Below are positions 1,316 through 51,534 of a stretch of DNA of 64,000 bases, piece by piece. The DNA is taken from the NCBI RefSeq assembly GCF_036417845.1, contig NC_089980.1, forward strand, positions 40,422,501-40,486,500. Reading direction: 5' to 3'. Position numbers and translations under genes: made by a program. The notes beneath the pieces are model-generated. The model searched no databases and was not told where the DNA came from. It was given only the letters and a program-made list of their open reading frames with translations. Within the stretch, counting starts at the first letter, position 1; each line of letters starts with the position of its first letter. The stretch is from Apteryx mantelli. Lineage: Eukaryota; Chordata; Aves; Apterygiformes; Apterygidae.

Positions 1316-1532
1316 ATTAAACATAAGAAAAGTGTTTTTTTATAGTGAGGGTGGTCAAGCACTGGAACAGGTCACCCAGAGCGGCTGTGAAGTCTTCATC
1401 TTTGGAGATATCCAAAACCCAGCTGGGCAATGCCCTGAGCAACCTGCTGTAGCTGCCCCTGCTCTGAGCAGGGGATCAGACTGGACCATCTCCTGCCGTC
1501 TCTCCCGACTTCAACTGTTCTGTGAAAGGGAA
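1316..1532 (+). mobile_element. CR1 LINE 3' end fragment
   Basis: The stretch carries the typical end of a chicken-repeat-1 retrotransposon: 'gtgagggtggtcaagcactg', then a segment like 'cccagagcggctgtgaag', 'ggagatatccaaaacc', 'ctgagcaacctgctgtag', and 'ctgctctgagcagggg' before 'cttcaactgttctgtg'. These follow the order of the avian/reptilian CR1 3' untranslated region from memory. Only about 0.2 kb is present, as expected for a 5'-truncated insertion, and no reverse-transcriptase frame is retained. The boundaries are approximate. This is one of the main reasons for placing the sequence in sauropsids. Confidence 0.82.
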
Positions 1533-4500
1533 GTTGGCAAGGCAAGGCCAGAGACAGGAAAGGATATCACTCAAGCGTCACAGGTGTCTGGCAGCAGGCT
1601 AGGGAGGGATCATGTAGACAGACCAGGAGAAAAGAGCTTCCTTTCCTTCTTTTGAGTTTCCCCCCTGACCACAGGCACCTTTGGTATTAGAGTTTGGGGA
1701 TGGAGGGAAAGAGAAAGAGACTCCATGGCCAAAGTTTTGAAGGTCTGAGACGTAGAAGCAGCAGGTGAGAAGGAAGCCGCCTAGCCTGTTTTAGGACATA
1801 CCCCAGGGAAGCTCACTAGACCTCCCACCAACTGGAGTTTTAGCGTGGCCCACCCTGAAGACTAAGGAGTTAATTCAGTTTCTTCATTTGTGGCCTTGCT
1901 AGAGAGGGCAGTTGCAGCCCGATTTTAAGTCTCTGTTCTGAAGCAAGAGCTGACAGAAAGAAAACTGTAACTTTTATCTTCTCCTTTGGGAAGAAACTGG
2001 AAAAGGTTTGCACGAAGGTCATTTTAATATTAAGCCAAAGCTCCAAGAGCCACCAGACAAACAGTTCTGTTTTTCCAAATAAAGAATTAGTAACTACATG
2101 GATATAAAACTTTCTCCTCTCATTTTAGCTAGCTGGTCCTTCCTTATTCCCAAGGGAATACAGTCATTTCTTGGGCATGTTTTTACACATGCCACTGAGA
2201 TCGGAACAGCAAACAGCCTGTGCTCGCTTAGAGGTTTTACAGCATGGGGCCTCTGTAAGGACTGAAGGAGCAGAGGATGAAAATACCCAGTGCAGAGTGG
2301 GAATGGGCCTCAATTAAATCCACACCTTGAGGTATCCTGAAGCCAGGACTACCTTCAGCTTCTGAAAGTCTCTTTGGTGGGTGTTATAACTTGCTTACAG
2401 CTAAGGTGGGAAGATCACTTCTCTCAGTTACTAAAAATACAGTCAGGGAAACATTACCCTCCAAATCACTTTAATATGCATCACGCTGCCACATATACTT
2501 CATGACTCCATTTGCATCCTATGGGTCAATTCAGTTCAAATCTACTGCCACTGCCAAGTTCACGCAGCTAGTAGCTTTTCCCTCACACACCCCAGAGAAA
2601 CAGGGAGAACAGAGGACAAGAAGGTTTTCCGTGAGGCTCCTATTGAAAAGCAAAGATGCAGCTCCTCTTCTGCCCAATATCATTGCTTGCAATCACTGAA
2701 GGCAGACCGTAAAGCAGAGAAAATTGCTCGGGAGGCACAATTACAAACTAGTCGACTTAAAGCTGCATTTTTAGATGAAATCAGCCCGATCTTGAGACAT
2801 GATCCATGAGATGTAAGCAACATGGCACCACGTTGAAGGGTTCCCATTTTCTTGCAAAGTGAATCAGTAACTGATGATCACAAGGCAATATGGATTACAG
2901 AAATACCACTGAGGTGACCTCCAGCTATGAAGGCCACATGGAGGACATACACAGAAGCACCATGAGAGATAAGAAACAAGGGGCTCTGGCTCCTTCCCCT
3001 TCACCTCCACATGCAAAAGTCTGCCACAGATAGAGCCACAGGTAGAAGGAGTTGCCCTTTCTCTGTACCTTATCCCCTCCGATGGTAAGTACAGCTGGAA
3101 ACTCATCCAAGCTGCACATTCTGCTGTGCACTACAGCTGGCTGGATACAGGAGGAGGAGTATACTGCAGATTCTTACAAATATGATGCTGTTCCCAGACT
3201 AACAAAGCTTAAAATTCCTTTTGGGTGCTCCAGAAAAAAGCAGGACCTTTCTATTCTATATGTCTCTCCTAAGAGTGTCTAAAGCCCTGAAAATTAAGCC
3301 TTCAAGGATTTGTATGTATTCCTTATCTTAAACTATTGCTTAGCAACAGACTTTAACCAAGGACTTGTCTGTGAAACTGCGAGGTATATCCACATATGCT
3401 AAGTGCAAAGCCATAAACACACCTTTCCAAATTATCTCTGCTAGGATCACATATGTAGCTGATGATCAAACTGAGCAGAAGGTTATCAGTGGTATATGCT
3501 CTCGGTGCTTTTGCAATGCTAATAAAGTGATCTTGACCCGAGTGAATCCAAGCCTGTTCACTGCAGAAAAGGTATCTGTGCATACCAAGTAGTCTGCACA
3601 CAGAACAAGTGCACAGCAGGAGTCAATATGATGCTGTTTTGTGACTACTCCTCCCACATGGAGCAAGGCGATCTACGTGTTTATATAGTAAGCATTAGGT
3701 GTTCCACTGATAACATTAGTATGTGCACGCATAGCAAGAAGAACTCGGCTTTAAAAAAAAAAAAAAAAAAATCTGTCTTAAACATGACTTTAGATATCAT
3801 CTAGGTAGCTATCAATCCAGCTATTCTATTAATCCATTAGTAGGGCAAAGCTTAATACCATTAGCATATCAGAAACTGGATTCATCAGATAGATAGTCCT
3901 GAGTTGTACTTTTCAGCCATGTTACACAGGAACTAATTTTCTCTTCCAGCTACCAGGCCATAATCTACCACTGTAAGCCACAACATAAATATAACCCACA
4001 TCTATATGCAAGATTGGGCCTGGAAAGAAATGTGAGCACAGGGGGCCTTCTTACCTCTCTGCTAAAAGTTGTATCAAACTCAAGAGGTTGGCAATGTGCT
4101 TAAGCAAGGGTTGTACTGTGGAGAGCTCACAATCACCCCTGTAGTTAAAGGATCCTTTCCTTTGCATAGTTTTTTTTCCTATGACACAGGAAGAGGAGAT
4201 GAATGTCACTTTATATTTAGGCTCAAGGGAGATGAACCACTTTCCTGCACTGAGCAGGGGTAAGAGGCATTGAATAAAGCAAGTGCAACAGCTGTGAAAT
4301 AGCCAGTCCAGATATAGGGAGAGAGTCAGGTAGGGAGTCTGCAGCCCTCCTCCCACATGCACTAAGGAAATGCAGGTACAGGTGTGGCCCACCACACACT
4401 GTAGAAGCACACACTGCTGTCCTCCTCTCTCCAGTGGGTACCCACTGTCCCCAGTGCACCAGCATCACAGCTGCGTGTGCACATTTCAAAAGGGGAAAAG

Positions 4501-31600: not shown

Positions 31601-33242
31601 TGTAGACATACCTATTTGAGACTCAGTTCTTCAAAAATACAGGGTAAATAACCTGACAAAGTGTGACTATTGTTGTGAATAATGATTAAGAACTTTTTTC
31701 AAAATCAGGAAATGAAGTAGTCGTGCGATGGTTGTTCTCATTCCAGTCACAAGTCTGTATTCATGATAAAATGATAGGTAAAAGTAGAAAAAGATAGCTG
31801 AAGAGATACATATGAGCTAAAAATTTACATACTTTGAGGTAAACTCTCCACCATCTCTCTCTCTGCCCCAAAGTTGATTTTCTCTCCTTTTCAGTGTTCT
31901 GTTAAGAAGCACAGATTTATTATGCAGCACTTACATTATTTCAACCACTATCCCTTTCGGCTGACAATTTCTTACTTAGACTGCACATCCCAGTGTATTT
32001 GTACCTCACTTGTCATGTCAAATATCTACTTTTCTCATTTGAAAAAGAGTATGCTTACTTTTAAAGATTCACTTTACAGAAGTTCTTTGGTAAACTGAAC
32101 ACTTAATTAAAAGTTTCTGTATTACTAAAATAATTTCACAGACTAACTTGGAATTAGAATTAAGCTTAAGTATCTATTAAGACATGAAGACTCTGATGAG
32201 AGAAAAAAAAATGCAGTATTTAAAGGAGAAATTTGACAGTATCCCTAGTCATTTTTTCCATCTTATACTGTCAATGCCTGGCAACGATGACTAATTCTGA
32301 GCCAAGGAAACTCTTAGTTATACAACAGATACTGTTTTAGTAACAGTTCACTATAGCTTGTCTCTTAATTGGACAGGATTACCTGAGAGACACAGTACAG
32401 CTATATCATAAAAGTATTACATATATCAGGGCAGTCACTTTGCTACTCCTTACATCCAACTTATTAACTAGCAACTCCTGAAAGGGACCACTGTGATGTA
32501 GCACAGATTTATCTACGTTACCCCTGCAGAGCCAAATCCTTAGAGATCAACAACTCTGAGACTAAACACCCAGTCAGCATTACTTCACACGGGTCCAAGC
32601 AGCTGTGCTCCTGTATTATGCTCTGCTACTTCCCAAGCTATGGTCTCCCTCAAATGGTTTGCCTTACCCTTACCTCATTGGTATGCTCTTAGCCTTCAAC
32701 TTGCTTCTTCCCTGACCCATTGGCTGTCCCTAGTTTACTAGCTACATCTCAACAGGCTACCACAAGCTCATGAACTACTATTCCTCATACAGTAAAATAT
32801 TTTCCACAGGAAATTCCACATAACCACAACTGATTAGGAAAGTACCTTTTCAAGAAAGCTCACAGACTCTGCTGCTGAAATAGACCTCAAGCTGAAACTT
32901 GGCTTGAGGTCCATAGTGTCCCAGCATCTCCTCTCATTGCTTCTTTACTATCTATAGTCCTGTTTGATGATTCCTATCACTACTTAGAGCAAGTTACAGG
33001 ATCCTTGTTAAGACTTGTCAGGCTGAAGCAGCAGCTGCTTAGCTGCTTTTGCTGGAAAGGACAACCATATATAAGCACCCTACCACAGTCATCCTTCTAT
33101 TACACTAGTAGGGGCATTGTGACTTAGCACACATCACACCATCACTTAAGGACAGTCCTTAGCCACAACATCTCACACAGCCTCACCCTCCAATTCAGAA
33201 AACAAGCTTAAACACCGCTGGGGGTTTTACCACAATGTTGTA

Positions 33243-35607
33243 CAGGCACACCTCGTTTTATTGCGCTTCACTTTACCGCGCTTCGCAGATATGGCATTTT
33301 TTACAAACTGAAGGTTTGTGGCAACTCTGCATTGAGCAAGTCTATCAGTGCCATTTTTCCAACAGCAGGTGCTCACTTCATGTCTCTGTGTCATATTTTT
33401 GTAATTCTCACACTATTTTAAATTTTTTCATTATATCTGTTATGGTGATCTGTGATCAATGATCTTAGATGTTACTGTTGTAATTGTTTTGGGGTGCCAT
33501 GAACCCACCCATATAAGACAGCAAACTTAATTAATAAACATTGCGTGTGTTCTGACTGTTCCACCAACTGGCCGTTCCCCTGTCTCTCTCCCTCTCCTCA
33601 GGCCTCCCTATTCCCTGAGACAGAACAGTATTGAATTTAGGCCAATTAATAACCTTACAATGGCCTCTAAGTGTTCAAGTGAAAGGAAGAGTTGCATGTC
33701 TCACATGAAATCAAAAGCTAGAAGTGATTCAGCTTAGTGAGGAAGGCATGCCAAAAGCCAAGACAGGCTGAAAGCTGGGCCTCTTGCGCCAAGCAGGTAA
33801 GTTGTGAAGGCAAAGCAAAAGGTCTTGAAGGAAATTCAAAGTGCTACTCCAGTGAACACACACATAAGAAAGCAAAACGGCCTTACTGCTGATATGGAGA
33901 AAGTTTTACCGGTCTGGATAGAAGATCAGACCAGCCACAACATTCCCCTAAGCCAAAGCCTCATCCAGAGCAAGGCCCTAACTCTCTTCAGTTCTGGGAA
34001 GGCTGAGAGAGGGGAGGAAGCTGCAGAAGAAAAGTGTGAAGCTAGCAGAGGTTGGTTCATGAGGTTTCAGGAAAGAAGCCGTCTCCATAACATCAAAGGG
34101 CAAGGTGAAGCAGCAAGTGCTGATGCAAAAGCTGCAGCAAGTTATCCAGAAGATCTAGCTAGGAGAACTGATGAAGGTGACTATGCTAAACAACAGATTT
34201 TCAAGGTAGACAAAACAGCCTTCTGTTGGAAGAAGATGCCACCTAGGACTTTCATAGCTAGAGAGGAGAAGTCAATGCCTGGCTTCAAAGCTTCAAAGGA
34301 CAGGTTGACTCTCTTGTTTGGGGCTAATGCAGCTGGTGACTTTAAGCTGAAGTCAATGCTCATTTACCAATCTGAAAATCCTAGGGCCCTTAAGAATTGT
34401 GCTCAATCTACTCTGCCTGTGCTCTATAAATGGAACAACAAAGCCTGGATGACAACACATCTGTTTACAACATGGTTTACTGAATATTTTAAGCCCACTG
34501 TTGAGACCTACTGCTCAGAAAAAAGATTCCTTTCAAAACATTACTGCTCATTGACAAGGCACCTGGTCACCCAAGAGCTCCGATGGAGATGTATGAGATT
34601 CATGTTGTTTTCGTGCCTGCTAACACAACATCCATTCTGCAGCCCATGGATCAAGGAGTCATTTTGACTTTCAAGTCTTACTATTTAAGAAATACATTTC
34701 GTAAGGCTAGAGCTGCCATAGATAGCGATTCCTCTGATGGATCCAGGCAAAGTAAATAGAAAACCTTCTGGAAAGGATTCGCCATTCTAGATGCCATTAA
34801 GAACATTTGTGATTCATGGGAGGAGGTCAAAATATCAACACTCACAGGAGTCTGGAAGAAGTTGATTCCAGCCCTCATGGAGGACTTTGAGGGCTTCAAG
34901 ACTTCAGTGGAGGAAGTAACTGCAGATGTGGTGGAAGTAGCAAGAGAACTAGAATGGGGAGTGGAGCCTGAAGATGGGACTGAATTGCTGCAATCTCCTG
35001 ATAAAACCGATGAGGAGTTGCTTCTTAGGGAAGAGCAAAGAAAGTGGTTTCTTAAGATGGAATCTACTCCTGGTGAAGATGCTATGAACATTGTTGAAAT
35101 GACAACAAAGAATTTAGAATATTACATACACTGAGTTGACAAAGCAGCGGCAGGGTTTGAGAGGACTGACTCCAATTTTGAAAGAAGTTTTCTTGTGGGT
35201 AAAAATGCTTTCAAACAGCATTGCATGCTACAGAGAAATCTTTCCTGAAAGGAAGAGTCAATCAATGCGGCAAACTTCATTGCTGTCTTATTTTAAGAAA
35301 TTGCCACAGCCCCCCCAACCTTCAGCAACCACCACCCTGATCAGTCAGCAGCCATCAACATCAAGGCAAGACCTTCCATCAGCAAAAAGATTATGACTGG
35401 CTGAAGGCTCAGATGATTGTTATCATTTAAGCAATAAATTTTAATTAAGGTATGTACATTTTTAGACAATGCTATTGCACACTTAGACTACAGTATAAAC
35501 AACTTTTATATGCACTGGGATACCAAAAAATTAGTGTGACTCACTTTGTTATACCTGCTTTATTGTGGTGGTCTGGAACTGAACCTGCAGTATCTGAGGT
35601 ATGCCTA
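33243..35607 (+). mobile_element. Tigger1-like DNA transposon (Tc1/mariner, pogo group), nearly full length
   Basis: The left end begins 'caggcacacctcgttttatt' and the right end finishes with 'tgaggtatgccta', the inverse of the Tigger terminal repeat. TA dinucleotides flank both ends (33241-33242 and 35608-35609) as the expected target-site duplication. At 2365 bp it is close to the roughly 2.4 kb of mammalian Tigger1, and most of the sequence follows the Tigger1 consensus as I remember it: the 5' segment with 'gcaactctgcattgagcaag', the full transposase region and the 3' tail. Tigger elements move by cut-and-paste using a DDD transposase. The copy lies between STPG4 and CALM2. I cannot measure identity here. 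Confidence 0.93.
33660..35396 (+). pseudogene. Tigger transposase, frameshifted
   Basis: The start is ATGGCCTCTAAGTGTTCAAG (MASKCSSER), the usual beginning of Tigger transposases. A deletion of about two bases soon after shifts the frame, and TGA/TAG codons follow. The longest intact piece is 33804-34667 and holds the CENP-B-like DNA-binding region ([12 protein letters not shown]) and the first catalytic block ([12 protein letters not shown]). The original frame resumes after a shift near 34530. The two remaining acidic codons are still visible in other frames: LLLID.APGHPRA near 34540-34580 and SILQPMDQG near 34630-34655. Later pieces 34862-35134 and 35136-35396 cover the C-terminal third. 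Not able to make an active enzyme. Confidence 0.9.
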
Positions 35608-35609
35608 TA

Positions 35610-38396: not shown

Positions 38397-51534
<13,138 letters not shown>

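Follow-up and report, generated by a model that had tools for sequence, protein, structure and literature searches.

A Tigger1-type transposon family in a bird genome: probable horizontal acquisition and signs of GC-biased conversion between neighbouring copies

Introduction

In the sections of the literature drawn on here, Tigger1 is treated as a mammalian pogo element and TIGD1 is assigned to the DD32D type (PMC7325037). Transfer of Tigger elements between turtles or crocodilians and eutherian mammals has been described, and Tigger was also counted in one bird species (Guan et al. 2022, PMC9219625). These cases resemble the family reported here in that a Tigger element has crossed between animal lineages, whereas transfer into or out of a bird, or amplification within one, is not described in the portions of that paper considered. 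A survey of 307 vertebrate genomes, as far as its excerpted text goes, gives at least 975 horizontal transfers, 24 of which, a rare minority, involve mammals and birds (PMC7070016). Within the extracts of the literature on Tigger and horizontal transfer that were covered, no Tigger1 wave in a bird was found described, and an earlier report is possible.

The second system to which this locus can be compared is that of neighbouring Alu elements, for which the range of gene conversion is quoted as about 10 kb (Aleshin and Zhi 2010, cited in PMC8230782 and PMC6598467). On the strength of these quotations, the likeness is that interspersed copies homogenise in relation to distance, and the difference is that the range observed here extends from 46 kb to 2.3 Mb, that the repeat is a bird DNA transposon and that the shared changes are GC biased. 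Neither the element nor the process is of a new kind; what looks new is the host and the distance covered. We lean, by a small measure, towards the view that a dead, horizontally acquired mammalian Tigger1 forms a live network of GC-biased conversion in a bird, linking copies up to about 2.3 Mb apart, which is more than 100 times the quoted Alu range.

The host and the neighbourhood of the element

The window is the whole stretch of 64,000 nucleotides that was analysed; it lies on C3 of a host genome of 1.504 Gb. The preliminary description had named a bird or reptile as host and had seen in a mammalian host a case against its reading; the host is a bird. For its beta-globin exons 2 and 3 the scores are 231-243 bits with 12 beta-globin chains in the PDB and at most 202.5 bits with the other chains among the matches listed (the best 60 of 73). 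From their entry codes we take those 12 chains to be avian, and the next ones to be turtle and mammal. The chromosomes are bird-like, with lengths of 223, 173, 141, 91 and 88.5 Mb and one small chromosome of 4.3 Mb, and C44, which extends beyond 84 Mb, may be Z. At window positions 1321-1535 there is a chicken-like 3′ end of a repeat that we take to be CR1. The transposon sits beyond the 3′ end of a calmodulin gene, which the preliminary description had identified as CALM2 by synteny.

Elsewhere in the genome, two overlapping cytochrome b-like matches with 37-48% identity and internal stops are found at C5:76869227-76870207. The search brought up no further match and hence no mitochondrial contig, and the stretch is apparently an old mitochondrial insertion.

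The window element and its transposase

The element is bounded exactly, and the TA dinucleotide at either side can be read directly from the sequence (Table 1). The inverted-repeat match between its ends consists of a 12-bp core, CAGGCAcACCTC / tAGGCATACCTC, and both CAGGCATACCTC-type inverted ends and a TA target duplication are thus present in this copy. The window copy measures 2365 bp against 2419 bp for the family consensus, from which it differs by 17 deletions (55 bp in all) and one 1-bp insertion, and its reading frame is broken into pieces of 288, 84, 124 and 92 codons. The Tigger1-like element with terminal repeats and TA duplications that had been reported for this interval is therefore confirmed, and flush TA/TA flanks were counted by script in 20 of 30 aligned copies of the family.

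Table 1. Features of the window, in window positions
Feature	Position	Strand	Basis
5′ TA target-site duplication	33241..33242		read from sequence
Tigger1-type (pogo, Tc1/mariner) DNA transposon copy, inactive	33243..35607	+	ends, frames, Pfam, family alignment
5′ terminal inverted repeat, 12-bp core	33243..33254	+	sequence and family ends
Transposase remnant, 288 codons: HTH_Tnp_Tc5 and first part of DDE_1	33801..34664	+	frames, Pfam
Tract common to window copy and copy C3:40808054-40810429 (L002, 352 kb away)	33948..35028	+	alignment, tract scan
Older tract common to window copy and copies L002, L003 and L004, 0.35-2.0 Mb away on C3	34068..34242	+	alignment, tract scan
Transposase remnant, 84 codons, shifted frame: second part of DDE_1	34505..34756	+	frames, Pfam
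Transposase remnant, 124 codons	34760..35131	+	frames; without Pfam match
Transposase C-terminal remnant, 92 codons, shifted frame	35118..35393	+	frames; without Pfam match
3′ terminal inverted repeat, 12-bp core	35596..35607	-	sequence and family ends
3′ TA target-site duplication	35608..35609		flank sequence
Calmodulin gene exons	38400..41260	-	tblastn with calmodulin; last exon weak match

Pfam recognises HTH_Tnp_Tc5 (5e-12) and DDE_1 (5e-22 and 5e-17) on the first two pieces of the window transposase; the remaining pieces tested gave no Pfam match, and the window fragments show these two domains only. A more complete picture is provided by the family copy L012, whose 623 open codons contain the Pfam domains CENP-B_N, HTH_Tnp_Tc5 and DDE_1 in this order. 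Its translation matches the solved CENP-B DNA-binding domain weakly (E 0.0005), and 32 residues, counted by eye, lie between the second and third catalytic D, which is the DD32D spacing.

The family has in common with human and other mammalian Tigger1 the CAGGCATACCTC ends, the TA target, a length of about 2.4 kb, the CENP-B_N, HTH_Tnp_Tc5 and DDE_1 domains and DD32D, the length and ends of Tigger1 itself being presumed. It differs from Tigger1 in its host, a bird, in the presence here of deletion forms of 1.79 and 0.33 kb and in copies that are presumably much less diverged than those of human Tigger1. A presumed human Tigger1 consensus is identical to the bird consensus at 2389 of 2415 positions (98.9%), with 18 differences in 2301 non-CpG sites, a comparison that is a lead only. 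This presumed Tigger1 sequence was not simply copied from the window, since at the sites where the window copy departs from its family it sides with the family in 156 of 162 cases. No mammalian or other Tigger relatives were obtained from the viral, genome, phage and plasmid contig sets. The label Tigger1 chosen in the preliminary description fits the DD32D spacing, the domain order and the likeness to the presumed human consensus, and it is from architecture and this presumed sequence that the identity to Tigger1 is drawn.

The family in the host genome

In one search of the host genome 40 copies were scored among 790 candidates. Pattern counts that allowed up to 3 mismatches, with the reversed pattern as a control, gave 238 genomic matches for the 5′ ends, 289 for an internal 36-mer and 160 for the 1083/1717 junction of the 1.79-kb deletion form, each against 0 in the reversed control. 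A count of copies, as had been proposed, thus arrives at hundreds, and with 0 in the reversed controls it is not due to chance. Three forms of 2.4, 1.79 and 0.33 kb coexist, the smallest of which (about 333 bp; L038, L040, L053, L054 and L061) joins consensus 1-158 to 2243-2419. Essentially full-length copies were found at 11 of the 20 places fetched by the 5′-end pattern, two of these being the places of L019 and L021. The first 30 copies, which had been picked for their likeness to the window copy, include one with a frame of more than 600 codons; none of the other 29 has a frame above 426.

The non-CpG difference to the 2419-bp consensus averages 3.9% (SD 0.6%, range 2.8-5.9%, 54 copies), and pairs on different chromosomes are almost without shared changes (mean shared 0.005, 730 pairs). 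The alignment leaves out L034, of which just the 5′ end is present, the 0.33-kb copies L038 and L040 and the interrupted L051, and counts once the places of L019 and L021, which were fetched again as L042 and L043. Because the forms coexist, the frames are mostly broken and most pairs share almost no changes, we infer one past wave of amplification that stopped.

Two copies carry additional features. L051 (C2:28393351-28396450) has an insert of about 1.2 kb at the deletion junction of the 1.79-kb form, and this insert contains a CR1-like 3′ end; CR1 was therefore apparently still moving after the Tigger wave. Directly adjoining L016 (C2:122849669-122852086) at either side is a direct repeat of about 205 bp with 83% identity, as though the element had landed where two units of an older tandem repeat met.

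Origin of the family

The best reading, and one that we consider probable, is that Tigger1 entered the bird lineage horizontally and that neighbouring copies then converted each other. An intact Tigger1 element would have been acquired by the bird lineage, and its transposase, equipped with a CENP-B-type DNA-binding domain, a Tc5-type HTH and a DD32D nuclease, would have cut and pasted the element into TA sites and mobilised the internally deleted forms as well. The preliminary description had proposed that a Tigger element was transferred horizontally or that a sauropsid Tigger lineage had gone unrecognised, and the 3.9% divergence of the copies, measured among bird sequences, supports this proposal. 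It had set against its own proposal an old amniote family inherited vertically, which the same non-CpG difference does not bear out.

Among vertebrates, pogo-like elements and TIGD genes occur widely, as would suit an old Tigger family passed down vertically across the amniotes. Birds and mammals have, however, been separate for about 320 My, an interval that would erase likeness at the level seen here in 54 copies and for which the neutral expectation lies far above the observed element divergence. Because the copies differ by so little from their consensus, the family is far too young for the bird-mammal ancestor, and vertical inheritance, rejected on account of copies that lie about 4% from a common consensus, is highly improbable. 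If bird DNA changes neutrally at 1-3e-9 per site per year, the wave would be about 13-40 My old, an uncalibrated estimate. Human Tigger1 is presumably older, judging by its copy divergence; if this is so and the presumed identity holds, the bird clock would have to be slow, or else Tigger1 was still active in the donor at a late time. As one genome does not reveal donor or direction, Tigger1 may also have reached the bird and the mammals separately from a third group, for instance an invertebrate, a parasite or a different reptile, or have passed from bird to mammal; again if the presumed identity holds, the bird and mammal amplifications would go back to one very recent source. Movement of Tigger between animal lineages is inferred to be common, with arthropods suggested as helpers, in the part of the study that we draw on (Guan et al. 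2022, PMC9219625). Such a route is itself a sub-case of horizontal transfer, and we give it a minor though appreciable chance. Near-identical repeats that lie close together can also confuse assemblers; against contamination or an assembly artefact stand copies on many chromosomes (of up to 223 Mb), each with distinct flanks and TA duplications, on which grounds contamination was rejected. A homogenisation confined to copies within 2.5 Mb of each other is moreover not what misassembly or polishing would be expected to cause, and an artefact of either kind has next to no likelihood. Should horizontal entry and a Tigger1 wave in a bird be true, they would constitute a clear case of transfer with hundreds of copies for dating.

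Mosaic structure of the window copy

The nearest relative of the window copy shifts along its length, with distant copies at both ends and L002 in the middle. Within consensus 722-1812 the two copies show 5 differences in 1081 sites (99.5% identity over the central 1.08 kb), whereas outside this tract there are 59 in 686 and 52 in 568 (ends about 91%); far pairs differ by an average of 7.5% within the same consensus interval. L002 is 0-0.8% different from the window copy across about consensus 751-1750. The tract is read as a recent gene conversion with this neighbour, by which the middle of the window copy would have been rewritten recently relative to its own age, at about 6% of the usual between-copy divergence. 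The three copies most like the window copy among the 40 scored are also on C3, and all four lie within 2.4 Mb. This mosaic sharing with neighbouring copies is a feature absent from the preliminary description.

Tract sharing between neighbouring copies

A tract was defined as a run of shared derived sites without mismatch and compared to a null obtained by shuffling alleles within columns; it was called significant when above the maximum of 300 shuffles. The strict scan, in which CpG, CA and TG sites were masked and L053/L054 were dropped, covered 52 of the several hundred copies. Significant tracts were found in 14 of the 22 pairs closer than 2.5 Mb and in 0 of the 1304 other pairs, and same-chromosome pairs beyond 2.5 Mb yielded none in 254. 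By distance, the tract-bearing near pairs are 4 of 4 below 100 kb, 4 of 6 up to 500 kb, 3 of 6 up to 1 Mb and 3 of 6 up to 2.5 Mb. The significant tracts are up to about 2.3 kb long and link copies from 46 kb to 2.3 Mb apart. Eight of the 22 near pairs are without a significant tract under the strict mask, including the window copy and L004, which are at and not above the threshold; the near pairs are non-independent, as 6 of the 22 come from the window's cluster of four, and the sampling began with 30 copies picked because they resemble the window copy. Sharing within 2.5 Mb has a mean of 0.054 against 0.006 after shuffling, a value reached in 0 of 5000 shuffles (17 pairs, 44 copies). The strict scan supersedes an earlier one with a looser mask that included L053/L054 and gave tracts in 19 of 1431 pairs, made up of 18 of the 23 near pairs and 1 of the 1408 others.

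The flanks of neighbouring copies are unrelated, and homology ends at the element ends in the pairs checked, L053/L054 excepted; for the neighbour copies fetched later the comparison covers part of one flank. Of 8 extra pairs selected by position alone, the 6 fetched comprised one duplication, three pairs with tracts and two without, the last being L059/L060 and L061/L062, of which the latter overlap within the 0.33-kb form alone. A duplicated chromosome segment carrying the element apparently accounts for L053 (C4:55249010-55251475) and L054 (C4:55290961-55293430), which are inverted, about 42 kb apart and 99.96% identical over 2462 bases, flank included; the inverted duplication is either recent or an artefact of assembly. 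Since likeness breaks off where the element does in the remaining pairs examined, segmental duplication is rejected for every pair with compared flanks apart from this one, and as a general cause it is hardly credible.

Gene conversion and local hopping

The pattern as a whole is in keeping with interlocus gene conversion that is GC-biased and extends to about 2.3 Mb. Copies less than about 2.5 Mb apart on one chromosome would repeatedly have paired and copied stretches between each other, with G and C favoured over A and T, so that the middles would be homogenised while the ends, lying beside unrelated flanks, would mostly keep their own mutations. In 12 of 14 tract pairs sharing is greater in the interior than at the ends (pooled odds ratio 5.7), as would be expected if a tract has to stop where homology does. 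The W>S:S>W counts are 159:68 for changes shared within clusters against 154:192 for private ones (odds ratio 2.9, p 1.6e-9), and 369:452 for the 25 copies without a sampled neighbour. These counts leave out alleles seen twice or more elsewhere and still include the duplication pair L053/L054 (3:0). There is little or no GC bias in L010/L047/L048 (13:15), L015/L058 (8:6), L055/L056 (6:6) and L059/L060 (6:5). An earlier count of 893:168 shared against 820:508 private was inflated by pair counting and possibly by decayed CpGs, and is superseded.

Local hopping is known for the related Tc1/mariner elements, and a transposase that reinserted copies near their source would make neighbours close relatives without any gene conversion. 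Relatedness does drop with distance and the flanks of neighbours differ, both as such hopping would have it, and in L029/L030 and L019/L021 the likeness spans almost the whole element, with ends as shared as the middle. Against it stands the mosaic nature of the sharing: L047 and L048 have one differing column over about 2.3 kb, yet a single 60-column bin close to the 3′ end holds 23, and the window copy and L002 are alike in the middle and not at the ends. Furthermore, the full-length L025 and L015 share long tracts with the deletion-form copies L057 (65 kb away) and L058 (77 kb away), respectively, both of which carry the 1083/1717 deletion known from several chromosomes, L058 with an extra change at the junction. 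The GC bias of shared relative to private changes is likewise not predicted by hopping. As the main cause it was given up on the mosaic map and the deletion-form neighbours and is now unlikely, a minority of local hops being possible.

If gene conversion between dispersed repeats does operate over megabases, it would locally distort both the ages that are estimated from transposon divergence and the subfamily trees, and such repeats would be natural probes of the chromosome regions that meet in repair or meiosis. The mosaic tracts would then also show directly how GC-biased conversion acts beyond allelic recombination.

The four copies of the window's cluster, L001-L004 (C3:38.5-40.8 Mb), are GC-rich and among the most diverged of the family, with 4.9-5.9% non-CpG difference from the consensus against the mean of 3.9%. 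Both properties perhaps stem from repeated GC-biased conversion.
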